IMG/VR virus record: IMGVR_UViG_3300042891_001130
Coordinates: 1 to 64,000 of that record
Reading direction: 5' to 3' (one strand)
DNA length: 64,000 bases
Source of the DNA: a virus
This document shows positions 3,108-11,261 of the stretch, piece after piece; position 1 is the first letter of the stretch; each line of letters starts with the position of its first letter. A program made the translations under genes and the position numbers. The notes beneath the pieces were generated by a model. That model worked only from the letters and a program-made list of their open reading frames with translations, had not been told where the DNA came from and ran no database searches.

Positions 3108-3473
3108 ATGTTCTTAAAAGAATTTTTCAGCAAACCTATTGACATTGATCATAATCAAAAAAATAAAAATCAAATGCAAAATTTTGACGATGACTTATTT
3201 TGGTTTATTTTAGATAATGATCGGTTGCATAAAGAACATTTTTTTCCAATTTCTAAAAAAATAAAATCATTAGACGAATGTGGCGATCGACAAATATACG
3301 AATTGTTTATGCCAATGGTCGTAGACGGTTGTAAAAACTTTTATGAAGACAAAAAAATGTCCGGTAGGATGAATAAAAAATTTCCTCAAGAAATGAGAGA
3401 AGGCATTTGTAAAAGGTTGTATGACCACTATTGTGAAAATTATGGTTTGAGAAATAAAAATGAAAATCTTTGA
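3108..3473 (+). CDS. Hypothetical protein
   Basis: The protein has 121 residues. I chose ATG 3108, four bases after the upstream stop. The longer start at 3045 would overlap the conserved basic tail of the upstream gene and only gives a shadow translation. The protein is charged and helix-rich ('MFLKEFFSKPIDIDHNQ', then an aromatic and Asp-rich segment) with Cys near residues 57, 74, 97 and 108. It overlaps the next gene by 14 bases, suggesting translational coupling. No family is recognised. Confidence 0.55.
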   Translation: MFLKEFFSKPIDIDHNQKNKNQMQNFDDDLFWFILDNDRLHKEHFFPISKKIKSLDECGDRQIYELFMPMVVDGCKNFYEDKKMSGRMNKKFPQEMREGICKRLYDHYCENYGLRNKNENL

Positions 3474-6400
3474 AATTATAAATATCTTTCAAAATAAAAA
3501 ATTAACTGAAGGCGGTAATGCTCAAGTCGCCGATAGAGATAATCCAGAGATTGTATATTCTGCTGAAAAAATTGATCTTGAAAAAACTAACAGAACTCAG
3601 GCTGCTAATTTAGTAAAACAAACAATTAATGCGTTGAATCAAAGTTTTCAATCCATTTATAAAGAACCAATTTTTGGAGAAGAATTATTTAAATCAAACG
3701 AATATTTAAGCGGAAGTTCTAAACACTTTTTTAATACTGCTGGAATTTCAGATCAAGAATTTACAAAATATAAACAAAAAGTCGGCGATATCGATGTACA
3801 ATGCGATGTAGATCAAAAACCACAGATACAAAAATTTTTAGATGATCATTATAAACAACAGTTTGGTCCAGGAAGATTATTGGGATATTCTTCTTCTGCG
3901 GAACAATTCAATTCAATTTTTCGTATCGACGAAATTGGACTAAATGTTCAAATTGATTTTGAATTTGGGCAATATGATAAAGAATTAGGTCACCCCACCG
4001 AATGGTATAAATTTAGTCATAGTTCAGAGTGGGACGATATTACCGCAGGCATTAAGGGTGTATTTCATAAATGGATTTACAGAGCATTACCTGCTGCTAA
4101 AGTAACTCCAAAGCACATAGCAGCATATAAAGGCTCGGGAAAAAATCGTGCTATTAATATAGAACCAGAACCTACTCAATCAAAAGATATAAGTTTTGCA
4201 GTAGGAAGCAGTCAGGGAGGTGGAGCAAGTTATAAATTCTCTCCTTACTTAGATCCGCAAACTGGAAAACCTATGGATATAAAAGGTGTTCCTGTACAAC
4301 AAGAATTGCCCAGCGCTCAAAGAACTTATATACAAAATTTAGATCAACAGTTCGAAATGTTTTTTGGAGTGCAGCCCAGCGGAAACGATAAAACTTTACA
4401 AAAAAGTTATGTAGGGACTTTAGAACTAATGAACAAATATTTAGATCAAAGTCAAATAACTGCTGCATTTGAAGAATTTATAAAAATTTGTTTTGACGAA
4501 GCAGCACAGATGATCGATCGAGATAATCCAGAATCCGATGCTGAGGCAAAATTTGCCGCAATTGATAAAGGACTAGAAATTTTAAAAATTTCAAACAAAA
4601 AACAATTACGAGATCAAGCAGTAGCAATGGCAAAAATATATTCAGATGAATATTTTGATTTACAACAATTTAAGAAATGGTTTGATAGTTTACCTAAAGA
4701 AAAACAAGATGCTATCAATGTAACCAGCAAAGGTGCTGCTAGAAAAGATATTCAGTATAATTCTCTTAGAAAAAAATTAAAAGCAGCCGGACAATGGCCT
4801 ATTAATGTATTAACAGAAGAAGATGCCAAGCCAAATTATGGTAGGCAAGGTATTGAACACATTTATAGTCGTAGACCCGACGGTACTCCAAGTAGTACAG
4901 AAATGAAGCCTGCTGCATTCGTAGAATTATGCGACGAAATAGCACAACTAGGCGGAAATTTAGATAATATACAGATAAATTTAAAAGTCGACGGAATGGG
5001 TATGAGATTCGGTAAAGACGAATCTGGAGAGCCATTTTTTATTACTAGCAGTAGATCAGATCCAGTTAGATTAAAAGATGTAGGATCATTCTTGGCTTAT
5101 AATCAAGAATTAGTAAAAAAAGGTGAATTAGATCCGAACAGCGAATTAGGTAAAGCCGCAATTGCAAGAGCAATTAATTATGACAAGGCTGCTGAAACAA
5201 TTTTAAAAAGTAAATTTATTCAAACTTTACCCCCCGACACAATTGTACAAGCAGAAATGATGTACGATTCGAATATGACTCCAGACAGTCAAGGATTTAA
5301 AACATTTGTTAATATTCCTTACGATGTAAAAAAATTAGGGAAAGTAATGACGTTGGCCCCGTTCATGGTTAAAAAGTATTCAACTAAAGAACGAATACCC
5401 GATGAACAAAATATAATTAAAAAATTACTATCAACAAGTGATTCTAACATTAAAATTATTTCAAACGAATTAGATCAATCAGGAATAAATGTTGGTAAAA
5501 TAATTGCTCCTGTTGTCAATTTGCCTGCAGATTTGCGGGCAACACTGACTAGCAGAAAACCAGCAGACAGAGCCATTAGAGATGCTCAAGTAATTCCTGT
5601 ATTAGATAAAGCAAGGGCAGAATTAAGTAAGGCAATTATTGATAGTCCAAAATTAAAAGGTATGGATATGCTAGGCCCATACAACGAAGGTATTGTTGGA
5701 AACATGCCTAGTGGAAGACTATTTAAAGTTACAAGTCCCTTGATGAAAGAAAAAATATTACAAAAGCAATCATTTGGATCTGTTGAAAAAAGATCTGCGG
5801 TTGTTGCCATGGGTAGTTTTGCTGGACATAGAGGTCATGAACAGTTAATAAGTATTGCCATAGATAGAGCAAATAAAGAAGGAGCGACTCCATTTGTATA
5901 TGTAGGTGGTAAAGTAGGACCAGATGATCCATTTCCTGTAGAAACAAAATTAGAAACTCTTAGAAAACTATTTCCAGGAGTAGGCATATTAAGTGTAGAC
6001 GCACAATTTGATTTACAAACAGATAAAGCAACAATTGGTCAATTTGGTAAGAAAGTCGAATATGAACTAATGAAAAAACCGCCGTATTTTAATCATATTA
6101 TTATAGCAGTAGGCGAAGACAGAAAAGCATTTGCAGATGGGTTAGTTGCATGGGCAACCAATAGATTTGGAAACCATCCAAATCTAAAGCATGTTAAATG
6201 GGAAGAAGATATAAGTTCTCGAAATGAAGAAGCAGGCGGAACTGGTGTAAGCACTACTCAAATGAGAAATGCATTAAAAACTATGCCTGAAAATCAAGCC
6301 CTTCAAATATGGAGCAAAGGTTTTAATGTAGAAAAATTAGGTGTTGAATATATCAAACACCTAATGGATGTTGCAAGAAAAAATATGAATATCCAACCTC

Positions 6401-6717
6401 CCGCTGCTGCTCCCGTAGTAGAATCATCTATATTTGATCCTGTACCTGGAAAAATAAATGTAGGTGATTTAGTTTCATTTAAAGGTTCTAGCGAAACATG
6501 GAAAGTAATAGCAGTTAATTTAGATCGATCTAAAGCAAAAATAAAATCAGTTGACACAGGAATGATTCATAAATTCGACACTGAAAATCTTTATAAAATT
6601 AATAATAAAGATTATACATCAGAAACTAGATTGTTTAATGCACTATTAAGGTTAAATTTTACCAATGAAACAGTATTACATCACTCAAGAAAATATCGCA
6701 CAAGACAGCCCCGATGA
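3460..6717 (+). CDS. Large protein with three nucleotidyltransferase-type domains and a cleavable-looking N terminus
   Basis: The protein has 1,085 residues. Residues 1-17 end in 'KKLTE|GG', a possible capsid-targeting/prohead-protease site. Residues 80-210 look like a polymerase-beta-fold nucleotidyltransferase: GSS at 85-87, GDID with D110 and D112, and a third acid D166 in 'VQIDFEF'. Residues 480-770 look like a covalent (ligase/capping type) nucleotidyltransferase: KVDG at 509-512, E599 in 'VQAEMMYD', EGIVG at 743-747, then 'LFKVTSPLMKEK'. Residues 780-950 carry the HxGH signature ('GSFAGHRGH', H790/H793) and 'VSTTQMR' (930-936) of NMN adenylyl- and cytidylyltransferases. About 100 C-terminal residues with an SH3-like 'VGDLVSFKGSSETWKVI' follow. 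All assignments are by motif. Substrates are unknown; NAD or RNA/DNA end chemistry are options. Confidence 0.6.
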   Translation: MKIFEIINIFQNKKLTEGGNAQVADRDNPEIVYSAEKIDLEKTNRTQAANLVKQTINALNQSFQSIYKEPIFGEELFKSNEYLSGSSKHFFNTAGISDQEFTKYKQKVGDIDVQCDVDQKPQIQKFLDDHYKQQFGPGRLLGYSSSAEQFNSIFRIDEIGLNVQIDFEFGQYDKELGHPTEWYKFSHSSEWDDITAGIKGVFHKWIYRALPAAKVTPKHIAAYKGSGKNRAINIEPEPTQSKDISFAVGSSQGGGASYKFSPYLDPQTGKPMDIKGVPVQQELPSAQRTYIQNLDQQFEMFFGVQPSGNDKTLQKSYVGTLELMNKYLDQSQITAAFEEFIKICFDEAAQMIDRDNPESDAEAKFAAIDKGLEILKISNKKQLRDQAVAMAKIYSDEYFDLQQFKKWFDSLPKEKQDAINVTSKGAARKDIQYNSLRKKLKAAGQWPINVLTEEDAKPNYGRQGIEHIYSRRPDGTPSSTEMKPAAFVELCDEIAQLGGNLDNIQINLKVDGMGMRFGKDESGEPFFITSSRSDPVRLKDVGSFLAYNQELVKKGELDPNSELGKAAIARAINYDKAAETILKSKFIQTLPPDTIVQAEMMYDSNMTPDSQGFKTFVNIPYDVKKLGKVMTLAPFMVKKYSTKERIPDEQNIIKKLLSTSDSNIKIISNELDQSGINVGKIIAPVVNLPADLRATLTSRKPADRAIRDAQVIPVLDKARAELSKAIIDSPKLKGMDMLGPYNEGIVGNMPSGRLFKVTSPLMKEKILQKQSFGSVEKRSAVVAMGSFAGHRGHEQLISIAIDRANKEGATPFVYVGGKVGPDDPFPVETKLETLRKLFPGVGILSVDAQFDLQTDKATIGQFGKKVEYELMKKPPYFNHIIIAVGEDRKAFADGLVAWATNRFGNHPNLKHVKWEEDISSRNEEAGGTGVSTTQMRNALKTMPENQALQIWSKGFNVEKLGVEYIKHLMDVARKNMNIQPPAAAPVVESSIFDPVPGKINVGDLVSFKGSSETWKVIAVNLDRSKAKIKSVDTGMIHKFDTENLYKINNKDYTSETRLFNALLRLNFTNETVLHHSRKYRTRQPR

Positions 6718-6986: not shown

Positions 6987-7421
6987 ATGGAACAATTACA
7001 CCAATTAGCAAAAATAGCATTTGCCAGCGAGTTTAGTTTTTATCTAAAAGCACACCAATTCCATTGGAACGTAGAAGGTATGTTTTTTGAACCTTTGCAT
7101 AATCTATTTGGTAAAATTTACGAAGAAGTTTATGAAAGCATAGATGTGTTTGCTGAACAAATTCGTAGTTTAGATACATATATGCCCGGCAGTTACACTA
7201 GACTTAATATGTTAACACAAGTCGAAGACGAAACAGAAATCTTCGACGGTAAGCAAATGGTTGCTGAATTGCTTAAAGATAATGAAAAAATGAAAGTTAT
7301 CTTAAAGAAATTGTTCGAAGTCAGTGAAGCAGCAGGCGAACATGGATTTAGTGATTTTATTGCTAGTAGATTAGATGCTCATGCTAAACACGGTTGGATG
7401 TTAAAGGCAACACTTAAATGA
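6987..7421 (+). CDS. dps: Dps-like ferritin-family protein
   Basis: The protein has 144 residues. Dps stores iron and shields DNA from peroxide in bacteria; family members form 12-subunit shells with ferroxidase sites between subunits. The signature 'HWNVEG' is at 26-31. The ligands H26, H38, D53 and E57 have the same spacing (12, 15, 4) as H51, H63, D78 and E82 of E. coli Dps, so the ferroxidase centre appears intact. The protein is a little shorter than bacterial Dps and lacks the long lysine-rich N-terminal tail that binds DNA. It sits among predicted head-packaged proteins but has no xxE targeting start itself. It may protect viral DNA or scavenge iron; this is inference. Confidence 0.85.
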   Translation: MEQLHQLAKIAFASEFSFYLKAHQFHWNVEGMFFEPLHNLFGKIYEEVYESIDVFAEQIRSLDTYMPGSYTRLNMLTQVEDETEIFDGKQMVAELLKDNEKMKVILKKLFEVSEAAGEHGFSDFIASRLDAHAKHGWMLKATLK

Positions 7422-7783
7422 GAGCACGCGAATTCATGGTTGAACGCAAAGGCGGAAAAATGACCAAGCGTCAACAAAATCCTACCCGCGGCGTTAACAA
7501 ATACACTGATGACGATAAGTGGAATAGCGATTACAAATTATATAGATTGGGCTTGGCACTGGCTGCAACTGATGGAAAAACAATGCCAGAGATGGATGAA
7601 GAAAGTTGGATCGGTAGATATAAAAGTCTACATCCATATAGTCAATGTGATCAAGATATGATCAATGTTGCGGCTAAAGTAGCCGGAGTTAATATACACG
7701 ATGTAAACAAAGGTGACATGAGAAGTCAAGAAACACCAGATACTTATACAGTAAGTCCAGTGGCGAATTGGAGTAAAAAATGA
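7418..7783 (+). CDS. Small protein with capsid-targeting-like N terminus
   Basis: The protein has 121 residues and overlaps dps by four bases (ATGA). It begins 'MRAREFMVE|RKGG', closely resembling the T4 internal-protein leader MKTYQEFIAE, which is cut after the final E. The rest is a compact domain containing 'YRLGLALAATDG', 'SWIGRYKSLHPYSQCDQDMI', and the ending 'SQETPDTYTVSPVANW'. I recall similar segments as modules in larger marine phage proteins. It overlaps the next gene by four bases. Likely a virion-internal protein; the biochemical role is unknown. Confidence 0.6.
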   Translation: MRAREFMVERKGGKMTKRQQNPTRGVNKYTDDDKWNSDYKLYRLGLALAATDGKTMPEMDEESWIGRYKSLHPYSQCDQDMINVAAKVAGVNIHDVNKGDMRSQETPDTYTVSPVANWSKK

Positions 7784-9729
7784 ACGAAGAATTTAAAAAA
7801 GTTAAATTACCTAATGAAACTAGGTACGTTTTAGAAACAACAACTGCAGGTGCTATTGGAACGAATAGTATTGCTACTGCGGAAAAACCCCTAGGTGAAC
7901 TTCAAAGACGACAGACAATTTCTGTGCCTGTTAATCAGAAGCCTCGTCAAGGTCCGATGAAATCACAGACCGGTGCAGGTGCGCATCGTGATAAGAAAAA
8001 AGAACAAAAACAAGGTAAAGAAAAACATCGTAAGCCTTTTGATGAAGAGAAAGGTGTAGCAGAAGGAATTGAACAAGCCGATCTAAGTCCAGAGGTTATT
8101 GAAATATCCAAGGATCTTTATAAATCCTTGCGTCGTTCAGCCAGAGATTCGTTACGAGCCAAAAAAACTATGTTAGTTATTAAGATAACCCGTGAATTGA
8201 CCCCTCAAGAAAAAAAACTAGTAGATGACACTATGAATCAATCTGGTATTGAGTATCAGATCAAAAATAATGTAAACGATTATGTGTATGGAACCTATAA
8301 AAATACATTAATCGGTATACCATATACACAATCTACTACGGAACAAGGTGTGGCGGAAACAACAGGTGACGAAAAATTTGATAAATCAATGAGAAAAATG
8401 ACTGGAAAAATTACTCCAGGCGATGCTGACGAGATGTGGCCGACACAAGAATTTGAACCAGTTGATCTTGATCCATCATACTTGCCAAGTATGGAAAAAT
8501 ACAAGGCAAAATTATTTCCATTGGCTTACCAATACTGGACTGACGGCGACAATGCAGATGAATTAAGGGCATTAGGATGGGAACCCGATTATGGCGACGA
8601 CTATGTTATGGTGGTGCTGTCTGGCATCGGACACGACGGTCACATTCAATACGACAAATATGATTTTGATGCTGAAGATGAAAACAATGAAGGTGTGGCG
8701 GAAGGCGATCAAGAACCTGACCACGAAATTAGCATGGCCAGCAACGAACTCCAAAGTATCATGTCTGATGCTAAAAAATTATTAGTTCTAATCAAACGTT
8801 ATAGCGAGATGGAAGGGCTAGAAGCATGGCAACAAAGTAAAATTACTAAATCGGCAGATTATTTAACTGCTGTATTGCGCAGCATCGGTGGAGAACAAGG
8901 TGCGTTAGAATCTCAAGTTAATGAGTACGAAACCCACACTTATAAAGATAGTCAAGGCAATGTATGGCGTGTCAACGACGAGGGCGAAAAAGAATTACTT
9001 CGTGGAGCACCGGGCAGTAGTTATGGCGGTAGCAGATATGGATCAAGATATCCTAGTAGATCATATTCAAAGCCTTCAGGAATGTATTTTTATAACGTAA
9101 AACCTGGGCAAGAAAATGATGCACAATCTGCTGGTTTAAAACAAAGCAAAAGTGGAAAATGGTATTCGACTTATCAAAATTCACAAGCAGATAAATTATT
9201 TGGTCCAGGAAAGTTTTGGCAACCAAAAAATGAAGCAAGTGTAGCGGAAGGTATGAATTCTTTATCATTCTGGAAGCGTGAAGCACAAAAGGCCGGTGGT
9301 GCTGCCAATATTGATTGGTATGCTATTGGCGTCGAACACGGCAAACAAGGTATTGTAATGAATCCTCCATATGGTGTAGGCGCTAAAGCCGTAACATTAT
9401 ACGGCAAAGGATTAGATGCCGGTCAGCAAGGTGTAGCGGAAGGCAAGAAAAAAGGTGTAGATGGTAAAGCCTGCTGGAAAGGTTACAAACGTATGGGCAC
9501 TAAAAAGAAAGGTGGCCGCACTGTAGACAACTGTGTACCAGTAGGCGAGGATTCTTATATCGAAAGTCTTATGAATCAACTATATGAAAAGGCTCCTCCA
9601 GGAGACAAATATGAACGTATAGTCAAGCATATTAAAGCAGGATATAGAAAAGACGGTAAACTAACTGATGTAGAAAAACGCAAGGCCTACGGTGCTGCTT
9701 GGAAGGCAAAAAATAAATCAAAAAAGTAA
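7780..9729 (+). CDS. Modular polyprotein with five VAE motifs (zero-frame product)
   Basis: The protein has 649 residues. Five near-identical motifs divide it: GVAE|G (E95), GVAE|T (E193), GVAE|G (E308), SVAE|G (E490), GVAE|G (E554). They resemble prohead protease sites (small/aliphatic-x-E). The segments differ in character. Residues 1-95 are a basic, Gln/Lys-rich head. 96-193 and 194-308 are folded-looking domains. 309-490 is a helical segment followed by a Gly/Ser/Arg/Tyr-rich stretch near 412-430. 491-554 is a small domain. 555-649 contains a two-Cys block ('GKACWKGYKRMGTKKKGG') and a basic helical block ('YERIVKHIKAGYRKDG'). The last two blocks resemble modules I recall in other phage proteins. 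The stop follows directly after a slippery A AAA AAG. Likely an internal head polyprotein; this is inference. Confidence 0.65.
   Translation: MNEEFKKVKLPNETRYVLETTTAGAIGTNSIATAEKPLGELQRRQTISVPVNQKPRQGPMKSQTGAGAHRDKKKEQKQGKEKHRKPFDEEKGVAEGIEQADLSPEVIEISKDLYKSLRRSARDSLRAKKTMLVIKITRELTPQEKKLVDDTMNQSGIEYQIKNNVNDYVYGTYKNTLIGIPYTQSTTEQGVAETTGDEKFDKSMRKMTGKITPGDADEMWPTQEFEPVDLDPSYLPSMEKYKAKLFPLAYQYWTDGDNADELRALGWEPDYGDDYVMVVLSGIGHDGHIQYDKYDFDAEDENNEGVAEGDQEPDHEISMASNELQSIMSDAKKLLVLIKRYSEMEGLEAWQQSKITKSADYLTAVLRSIGGEQGALESQVNEYETHTYKDSQGNVWRVNDEGEKELLRGAPGSSYGGSRYGSRYPSRSYSKPSGMYFYNVKPGQENDAQSAGLKQSKSGKWYSTYQNSQADKLFGPGKFWQPKNEASVAEGMNSLSFWKREAQKAGGAANIDWYAIGVEHGKQGIVMNPPYGVGAKAVTLYGKGLDAGQQGVAEGKKKGVDGKACWKGYKRMGTKKKGGRTVDNCVPVGEDSYIESLMNQLYEKAPPGDKYERIVKHIKAGYRKDGKLTDVEKRKAYGAAWKAKNKSKK
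8053..9444 (+). repeat. Five dispersed copies of a ~15-base VAE-coding repeat
   Basis: Copies lie at 8053-8067, 8347-8358, 8692-8706, 9238-9252 and 9430-9444, all in the same frame. The consensus is GGTGTRGCRGAAGG, with an upstream CAAG or GAAG in some copies. The segments between them share no obvious similarity, so these are linker repeats rather than copies of a domain. They could serve as protease sites in the protein and as short homologies for module exchange in DNA. Confidence 0.75.
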
Positions 9730-9768
9730 GTGAGCAGGAACCGCAAGATCCGGCACAGGATCCTGCTC
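9720..9768 (+). promoter_or_regulatory. Candidate programmed -1 ribosomal frameshift signal
   Basis: The heptamer A AAA AAG (9720-9726) is in the frame required for -1 slippage (tcA AAA AAG TAA). The zero-frame stop follows at once. After a five-base spacer, GAGCAGGA (9732-9739) pairs perfectly with TCCTGCTC (9761-9768) around a 21-base loop. A purine-rich GGAAGG (9701-9706) lies 13 bases upstream, similar to the dnaX stimulator. The -1 frame is open to 9947, where its stop overlaps the next start. The alternative is an indel in the run of six A. Confidence 0.7.
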
Positions 9769-9947
9769 AAGATAAACCTAAATTAAAGCCGGCAGTAAAA
9801 TTAACTCCTGCCGTGTCATTGGATCAATGGGAACAAACTTTTTTAGATGCTGACCCAGAAAGATATCATCAATTTAGAAATAAAACTCCTGCTAAAAAAA
9901 TTCAAATGGCACAGTCTGCTAGAAAACACGCTATTGAGAAAAACTGA
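9726..9947 (+). CDS. -1 frame extension of the polyprotein (73 codons)
   Basis: This frame has no plausible start of its own: the only in-frame ATG is 14 codons from the end, and no ribosome site is visible. It is entered naturally by a -1 slip at 9720-9726. The product begins with a Gln/Asp/Pro-rich repeat ('EQEPQDPAQDPAQDKPKLKP') and ends in a short charged helical segment ('LDADPERYHQFRNKTPAKK'). Codon use and Lys/Gln richness match the upstream gene. Its TGA overlaps the ATG of the next gene (TGATG). Slippage would give a 722-residue long form. Confidence 0.6.
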   Translation, partial: VSEQEPQDPAQDPAQDKPKLKPAVKLTPAVSLDQWEQTFLDADPERYHQFRNKTPAKKIQMAQSARKHAIEKN

Positions 9948-10375
9948 TGAGAAATTTTATAACATTAGTCGAATCGGCAAATAAAGGTTGCCCAATTGCC
10001 ACACATAACATAGATATTAATTTAAAAAATCGGCAAAAAGCCATAGACGAATATCACTACGGGCCAGCCAATCCCGATAAACCAGAAGATTATTGGAAAA
10101 AATCTGCTAAGATATTTGGAGTAAGTGAGACAACTGCTAAAACAATGCGATGCGGTAATTGTGCAGCATTCGATGTTAGCGATAGCATGAGGGAATGCAT
10201 TGCAACTGGGATTAAAGGCAACGAAAAAAATATTGACCCAAACGCAACTATAAATCTCAGCGATCTAGGATATTGTAATTTTTTACATTTTAAATGTGCA
10301 GGTAGTCGCAGTTGTAAAGCATGGGTTACCGGAGGCCCAATTACTGAAAAAGATAAAGGTAAGAAAGCAGATTAA
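9947..10375 (+). CDS. Cys-rich small protein with capsid-targeting-like N terminus
   Basis: The protein has 142 residues. The start overlaps the stop of the -1 frame extension. It begins 'MRNFITLVE|SANKG', again a short leader ending in (L)xE. The mature part has CPIATH, CGNC, a Cys in 'RECIATG', 'YCNF', 'FKCAGSRSCKAW' and ends 'VTGGP'. Seven Cys plus conserved His suggest a metal-binding or disulfide-linked fold. I recall the same domain, starting 'CPIAT' and ending 'AWVTGGP', in other marine phage proteins without assigned function. Predicted virion-internal by its leader and its neighbours. Confidence 0.6.
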   Translation: MRNFITLVESANKGCPIATHNIDINLKNRQKAIDEYHYGPANPDKPEDYWKKSAKIFGVSETTAKTMRCGNCAAFDVSDSMRECIATGIKGNEKNIDPNATINLSDLGYCNFLHFKCAGSRSCKAWVTGGPITEKDKGKKAD

Positions 10376-10991: not shown

Positions 10992-11261
10992 ATGAGTAAA
11001 TCATTCGGGACCCCCGAGCAGGCCAAAATTAAACAAATTATTTCAGAAGGTGTTACTGTTCTACAAGAAATTCAAGATCTTACTGAAGGGCTAAATGAAA
11101 CTATTAAAGCCGTTGCACAAGAGTTAGATGTTAAACCCAGTGTAATTCGAAAAGCAATTCGTATTGCACTTAAAGATCAATGGGATCAGGTATTCCGTGA
11201 ATTTGATGACCTCGAAACTATTGTCGATATCAGCGGACATGCTAATCGCCGTGAAGACTAA
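10992..11261 (+). CDS. dsbA: DsbA-like late transcription regulator (dsDNA-binding)
   Basis: The protein has 89 residues, the length of T4 DsbA, a small double-stranded-DNA-binding protein affecting late transcription. The sequence is all-helical: 'SFGTPEQAKIKQIISEGV', a central helix 'GLNETIKAVAQELDVKPSVIRKA' that reads like a helix-turn-helix, and an acidic C terminus. Marine phage homologues sharing the 'SFGTPEQ' start are usually annotated this way. It has a sigma70-like promoter and a strong ribosome site, and the next gene starts three bases after its stop. Confidence 0.65.
   Translation: MSKSFGTPEQAKIKQIISEGVTVLQEIQDLTEGLNETIKAVAQELDVKPSVIRKAIRIALKDQWDQVFREFDDLETIVDISGHANRRED

Follow-up and report, generated by a model that had tools for sequence, protein, structure and literature searches.

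A conserved signal for probable programmed -1 frameshifting at the end of a putative internal head polyprotein of T4-like phages

The stretch of DNA considered here, hereafter the window, comprises the first 64,000 nucleotides (nt) of a virus record of 93,201 bases (IMGVR_UViG_3300042891_001130), as classed by IMG/VR. Its plus strand carries an open reading frame (ORF) for a modular polyprotein with recurrent VAEG motifs, which ends in the codons TCA AAA AAG TAA and is continued in the -1 frame by a further stretch of open codons, termed the tail (Table 1). The slippery heptamer A AAA AAG lies in the correct phase of the ORF with the stop codon directly behind it, the TGA that closes the -1 frame overlaps the ATG (9947-9949) of the next gene, and a GGAAGG is located upstream of the heptamer. 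These features had been proposed in an initial annotation made from the letters of the DNA, and each was recovered at the same place. The stem proposed downstream of the heptamer was likewise recovered with perfectly paired arms, although its dimensions had to be corrected, from 8 to 9 base pairs and from a spacer of five bases to one of 4 nt, on the basis of the predicted RNA fold of the 59 nt 3' of the heptamer.

Table 1. Features of the polyprotein gene and its -1 frame extension (window positions)
Feature	Position	Strand	Basis or remark
Zero-frame ORF, modular 'VAE' polyprotein, short product of 649 amino acids	7780..9729	+	ORF translation
N-terminal propeptide-like segment, 19 residues, ends VLE	7780..7836	+	cut position putative
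Residues 8-44, resembling the N-terminal region of the phage's own gp23	7801..7911	+	alignment
VAEG motif 1, putative prohead protease site	8056..8067	+	motif; cleavage putative
VAEG motif 2, putative prohead protease site	8695..8706	+	motif; cleavage putative
VAEG motif 3, putative prohead protease site	9241..9252	+	motif; cleavage putative
VAEG motif 4, last before the frameshift, putative prohead protease site	9433..9444	+	motif; cleavage putative
GGAAGG, possible Shine-Dalgarno stimulator, 13 nt upstream of the heptamer	9701..9706	+	no conserved element among relatives
Slippery heptamer A AAA AAG	9720..9726	+	in A_AAA_AAG phase of the ORF 7780-9729
Zero-frame stop UAA, directly 3' of the heptamer	9727..9729	+	
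-1 frame extension, 73 codons (9726-9944) plus TGA (9945-9947); long product of 722 amino acids	9726..9947	+	
Putative stimulator stem, 5' arm	9731..9739	+	RNA folding
Putative stimulator stem, 3' arm	9761..9769	+	RNA folding
Conserved C-terminal tail domain, LDxWxxxFxxADPxxYHQFxNKTPxKKxQMAxxA, predicted helical	9819..9944	+	

The 59 nt behind the heptamer have a predicted folding energy of -18.4 kcal/mol (z -3.59), with 1/200 shuffled sequences equally stable, and an alternative form of the stem pairs 12 positions with one mismatch (9731-9742 with 9758-9769). Against a null in which the -1 peptide is retained, the window tail gave p = 0.01 for the stem score and 0.0225 for the free energy (values for L099, a locus of the same sequence). 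AAAAAAG occurs 51 times in the window against 53.2 expected and the heptamer alone is therefore uninformative, as the initial annotation had cautioned in resting its claim on stem, phase and extension together. There are 107 A6A/A6G heptamers on both window strands, seventeen of which are in A_AAA_AAR phase with at least 60 ORF codons before them. A long -1 extension and a strong stem are combined only at position 9720 among these seventeen, this site ranking first both in extension length (75 codons from the heptamer) and in stem score (26; scores of at least 26 are reached at 0.2 % of 1703 background positions), with the runner-up attaining a stem score of 22 and an extension of 20 codons. 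The identical stretch, with the same A6 run, is present in four other metagenome contigs, which argues against an assembly error. No further copies of the arrangement occur in the window, where a minus-strand match corresponds to the same palindromic stem.

A search with the 73-residue window tail retrieved seventeen loci (numbered with the prefix L), of which four match the window exactly, twelve share its frameshift arrangement and the last (L018) has a tail in decay. In the tail domain of L018, two in-frame TAA stops and a frame break are observed. Using an alignment of six tails, 78 tail loci were found, and the classes given here are based on these. The tail can be reached only by a -1 slip in 51/78 loci and is in frame with the upstream ORF in 26/78 (two of which, L169 and L170, are visible over only 25 and 61 codons because the locus begins there), while the state of one locus, L175, which begins inside the tail domain, is undecidable. 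Among the slip loci, 48/51 incorporate A AAA AAG or A AAA AAA followed at 3-6 nt by a stem with the common core AGCAGG/CCTGCT, and three (L164, L168 and L174) contain a run of nine A (A9) without such a stem. The comparison of homologues that the initial annotation had suggested thus finds heptamer, stem and open -1 frame together in 48/78 tail-encoding loci. Fused homologues, which it had named as refuting, do exist, but they form a set of their own within the shared gene slot. Near copies are frequent, and thirty distinct tails could be distinguished, twenty-eight in the stem class and two in the A9 class. The zero-frame stop immediately follows the heptamer in 28/30 and lies one codon later in L111 and L174.

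The frameshift and fused genes share one slot, which lies upstream of gp43. Downstream of them, a relative of the small gene at position 10992 is found in 46/48 stem-class, 3/3 A9 and 26/26 fused loci, and gp43 follows on the same strand in 43/48, 3/3 and 26/26, respectively, within the flanks examined. When the slot was approached via the relatives of the gene at 10992, the best 80 of 456 confirmed loci, and hence those nearest to the window, comprised 20 frameshift loci, 25 fused loci, three further A9-run loci (L304, L324 and L364), three whose sequence starts at or within the domain and 29 in which no tail was recognised (12 with less than 1 kb upstream, 17 with 1 kb or more). The tail-less slot orthologues include at least four (L306, L308, L309 and L311) that end in ...LKK, with a TGA that overlaps an ATG after an A7 run (AAAAAAATGA), an overlap which apparently couples a different downstream gene. 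The six A9-run relatives (L164, L168, L174, L304, L324 and L364) have the UAA directly after AAG in 5/6 and no conserved stem, and are candidates for slippage by either polymerase or ribosome. The bases that follow the A9 run (GTAAGTGAG) resemble the stem class in 4/6 of them (L164, L168, L324 and L364) and the ERQLEP further on resembles fused relatives such as L161 in 5/6, which suggests that the A9, stem-class and fused loci are related states. In a phylogeny of the tail domain, built on 50 columns, the state labels are strongly clustered (4 changes, compared to a shuffled mean of 17.5), while this number of columns gives no resolved order of the states, the ancestral state included. Beyond these metagenomic loci, a tblastn search of 50,697 phage records, from which records very near to the window's genome were possibly excluded, found no match to the window tail even at E <= 10, and none (0/134) of the candidate stretches in prokaryote genomes was confirmed.

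The tail domain evolves as a protein in the -1 frame under purifying selection, with a median ratio of non-synonymous to synonymous substitution rates (dN/dS) of 0.131 (207/435 pairs with usable dS), compared to 1.11 (380 pairs) and 2.03 (332 pairs) when the same DNA is translated in the remaining two frames. Constraint on this frame had been named in the initial annotation as a supporting observation, and it extends to the signal. Across the thirty distinct tails the codon that ends in the first A of the heptamer is TCA (8), GCA (15), ACA (2), CTA (2), CCA (1) or AAA (2), while A-ending codons make up shares of 0.19-0.64 where these ORFs encode Ser, Ala, Thr, Pro or Leu. In the 5' stem arm, two codons show nearly no synonymous change (GAG in 29/30 and CAG in 28/28), with GAA:GAG at 46:23 and CAA:CAG at 117:49 elsewhere in the tails. 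When random synonymous codons were drawn with the -1 peptide kept, and the results scored by stem score and free energy, the stem score yielded p < 0.05 in 27/28 stem-class tails, which are related and hence not independent (the exception being L109 with 0.09). No stem signal is present in the two A9 tails (0.395 and 0.92). The loop of the stem varies between 15 and 31 nt across the relatives with the arms retained, and sliding the arms by 1-3 positions leaves 72-134 paired cells, for a structure chosen on the same sequences.

The description of the tail as Pro/Gln-rich holds for its first half, while the second half is a small conserved domain. Helices are predicted at residues 32-41 and 55-72, with no strands, at a mean predicted local distance difference test (pLDDT) score of 74, although most of the first 16 residues score below 50. 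The linker from the heptamer onward is also conserved among the tails. A search for fold relatives in BFVD yielded 57 matches at E <= 10 and none at E <= 0.001; the best five (E 0.15-0.43), which include a cytidyltransferase-like protein of an uncultured Caudovirales member, are none of them confident, and no Pfam or PHROG match was obtained at E <= 1. As every copy in the fused relatives carries the tail, and as purifying selection acts on it, the tail probably represents a working domain rather than translational noise. The best guess at present is that it serves as an assembly or retention element which is needed in a limited, sub-stoichiometric number.

For the 649-residue protein itself, no Pfam family was found above cut-off (best E 0.14) and the PHROGs recovered at E <= 0.001 are all families of unknown function. 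Its N-terminus resembles that of the gp23 shell protein of the same phage (YLAE-SATAGATSAGNIAT), with NETRYVLE-TTTAGA...IAT in the polyprotein aligning to NTRRYLAE-SATAGA...IAT in gp23 at a score of 62 against the first 120 residues, which was equalled in 0/1000 shuffles. Within gp23 (G000:C1 80145-81326), the aligned segment is the presumed cleavage region, and V-L-E in the polyprotein faces L-A-E in gp23, both cuts being putative. Twenty-eight polyprotein N-termini were found by motif and twelve of these (one a duplicate of the window's) were aligned to the same 120 residues, with 0/1000 shuffles as high for 11/12. One [IVLM]AEG motif was found outside the polyprotein among the ATG-started window ORFs of at least 100 amino acids, and the genome encodes a T4-type prohead protease (PF03420) as well as gp23 (PF07068), the latter as a separate gene. 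A section of PMC9026906 reports that T4 gp21 cleaves after L/I-x-E and that T4 internal proteins carry targeting propeptides of 10-19 residues, and related prohead protease motifs appear in a portion of PMC5694885. Like the T4 internal proteins with capsid targeting sequences, the polyprotein starts with a propeptide-like segment that ends in Glu, of a length within the T4 range, and is accompanied by a protease of this type; unlike them, it is a single long polyprotein in which four VAE-G motifs are combined with a frameshift tail. The gp23-like N-terminus, the four motifs and the presence of PF03420 and PF07068 in the genome suggest a location in the head, where the carrier would most likely be an internal polyprotein of a T4-like phage.

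A hypothetical protein of Cyanophage S-RIM32 (L177:5605-6285) has a module, LDGKACWKGYKxMGTKxKGGKxVDNC, in common with the polyprotein. Just 5' of the prohead protease gene lies an ORF for an acidic protein of 347 amino acids with tandem DDVEEG/VEES repeats (L289:1330-2373; G000:C1 77329-78372), which may be a scaffold core protein rich in V-x-E sites. Elsewhere in the window, positions 3460-6717 encode a 1085-residue protein with a part resembling cytidyltransferase/FAD synthetase (PF06574 below cut-off; phrog_3041), with a ferritin-like gene nearby at 6987-7421, and no tRNA genes were found in the window.

The arrangement is very probably that of a programmed -1 ribosomal frameshift which appends the 73-residue tail to the putative internal head polyprotein. 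Ribosomes on A AAA AAG would slip back by one base, helped by the stem that starts 4 nt further on, read beyond the UAA and add the tail with its small helical domain, while the others would stop at the UAA. The N-terminal propeptide would direct the polyprotein into the prohead, where the prohead protease may cut after V-x-E, and the last fragment (approximately 95 amino acids) would then come in two versions, one with the tail domain and one lacking it. The same A run might instead be used by RNA polymerase, which by adding or dropping an A would produce some mRNAs with the tail in frame. Transcriptional slippage of this kind is described for Thermus dnaX in a section of PMC5009743, and it could operate in the six A9-run relatives, which do not have the conserved stem. 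A polymerase needs neither a phased heptamer nor a stem, however, and 48 loci retain A_AAA_AAG or A_AAA_AAA in phase with the common stem core at its short distance, so that an origin of the long form in the mRNA appears improbable.

Translation of the tail as a separate gene, by reinitiation or internal initiation in the -1 frame, could draw on the ATG that lies within the eight codons before the conserved Trp in 23/30 distinct tails, on the AAGG a few bases before this ATG in a few of them (L128 and L136), and on the stop-start overlap by which at least four slot orthologues apparently reach a different downstream gene. In 5/30 tails, however, there is no start codon at this place, and in one more TTG is the sole candidate. 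The window offers GTG and TTG shortly 5' of the Trp, and an ATG only at tail residue 61. Most of the 16-base stretches before the ATG contain no Shine-Dalgarno sequence as judged by eye, the conserved linker already begins at the heptamer, and a separate gene would give no reason for keeping heptamer and stem, all of which renders independent initiation very unlikely. The existence of the fused relatives and the decay seen in L018 would fit a tail that is no more than a broken relic of fused genes, or one that has been put out of frame by an assembly error in the A run. This is hardly credible in view of the purifying selection in the -1 frame, the recurrence of an unchanged A6 run in the four further contigs that share the identical stretch, and the placement of the zero-frame stop immediately behind the heptamer in nearly all distinct tails.

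Several observations nonetheless weigh against the frameshift interpretation or against parts of it, in addition to the relatedness of the tails. The free-energy version of the synonymous null falls below 0.05 in only 18/28 tails, the arm codon next to the two constant ones varies (GAG 12, GAA 15), and equal codon constancy is seen outside the stem, for example in Lys AAA (30/30) and Gln CAA (23/24). Stem covariation is absent, the six core pairs being invariant and the test hence powerless, with 225/280 paired cells compared to a shuffle mean of 226.3. A conserved upstream Shine-Dalgarno element was not seen when the flanks of the relatives were read by eye: GGAAGG is present in the window, L109 and L115 and GAGGAA-like purine stretches in L110 and L117, with nothing comparable in L103, L106 and L107. 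With regard to the carrier, the similarity to gp23 spans only approximately 37 residues, the N-terminus of L012 aligned elsewhere in gp23 (13/1000 shuffles as high), and V-x-E departs from the T4 motif L/I-x-E, for which reason cleavage can be proposed only with caution. Finally, 26/78 loci simply fuse the tail, it is decayed in L018 and it is missing from the 17 tail-less slot loci with at least 1 kb upstream, and thus appears dispensable for the gene family. On balance, what the initial annotation observed is confirmed, and its reading as a programmed frameshift is supported and largely holds.

Among the loci, different zero-frame modules lead up to the heptamer (...KAYGAAWKAKNKSKK, ...DPYFESLRAKVEELAKK, ...INKLITALESKK, ...STKHKGLPEKKKSKK, ...WMKNKGYKSHKAKK and others), and past the tail domain some loci stop while others run on into further modules. 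In L007, L008, L111, L112 and L324, the -1 frame continues past the domain into more modules, such as ENFADGKNPQDKGDSKRHGINTKASVSSLRKTA.... A scan of the DNA alone for heptamer, UAA and 5' arm recovered, among the 80 of 111 stretches listed, 35 tails recognised by motif, three diverged tails (L192, L212 and L220), all of which also have the 3' arm, and 42 stretches without a tail; L023 contains one more diverged tail. The persistence of heptamer and stem core behind differing modules suggests a cassette that moves as a unit, presumably by recombination. In an extended form, which is tentative and falls somewhat short of an even chance, site, stop, stem and tail domain (approximately 230 nt) would constitute a mobile recoding cassette that is swapped whole behind different C-terminal modules of a capsid-packaged and protease-processed polyprotein, with slippage setting the dose of the domain that is kept in the head or injected into the host. 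If this is correct, the relatives in the slot would represent alternative states, namely a fusion that gives the full dose, a slip on A9 with no stem, A6 combined with a stem, and the absence of the tail.

The heptamer of Escherichia coli dnaX is A AAA AAG. The polyprotein gene shares with dnaX this heptamer and a stem a few nt downstream, but has no conserved upstream Shine-Dalgarno element, so that only part of the 'dnaX-type' architecture initially ascribed to it stands; the shifted product is furthermore the long form here and the short form in E. coli dnaX. A minority type of bacterial dnaX has the zero-frame stop directly after the site, as in the window, according to a section of PMC5009743. 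The same source mentions the extended form of gene 10 in T7 and T3, which arises by a -1 frameshift (with G_GU as X_XX in T7). As in gene 10, a head protein would occur here in a short and a -1 extended form, but the slippery site is another one and the carrier is not the shell protein, which is encoded by the separate PF07068 gene. Programmed frameshifting also adds immunoglobulin (Ig)-like domains to phage structural proteins (Fraser et al. 2006, cited in PMC5009743), and a view given in part of the latter is that it is a matter of chance whether such domains end up in frame or out of it. These extensions resemble the present one in that some phages have a C-terminal domain in frame while others have it behind a frameshift, and in that a fraction of the virion protein copies would carry it. 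They differ in that the carrier here is probably an internal head polyprotein and that the signal is kept with the domain behind different modules. The tail domain was not identified as Ig-like, being predicted as helical without strands and having no Pfam or PHROG match. The tail assembly chaperones gpG/gpGT likewise arise as two products in a ratio by a -1 frameshift; this identity was rejected for the polyprotein gene, which lies upstream of gp43 and not between the genes for the major tail protein and the tape measure. Frameshift-added C-terminal domains on phage virion proteins are thus already known, while the conservation of the out-of-frame state together with its signal behind different modules, on a different protein and with a different kind of domain, is new. 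In the open-licence literature, with subscription papers largely outside, no paper was found that joins frameshifting with internal head or ejection proteins, nor any that combines prohead protease, polyprotein and cyanophage, and no title or abstract among those listed concerned the present system.

The occurrence of one orthologous gene as an obligate fusion, in an A9-run form or in a heptamer-plus-stem form provides a natural series in which the origin and spread of recoding signals become testable. Gene callers without a frameshift model are expected to report the short form only, and the tail is perhaps under-represented in annotated phages, as none of the phage records was matched by tblastn. 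The host of the cassette is a family of uncultured T4-like phages, in which the extra domain is apparently placed on only some of the protein copies. If the assignment to the head is right, recoding would set the ratio of the two forms of a packaged, and possibly injected, phage protein.

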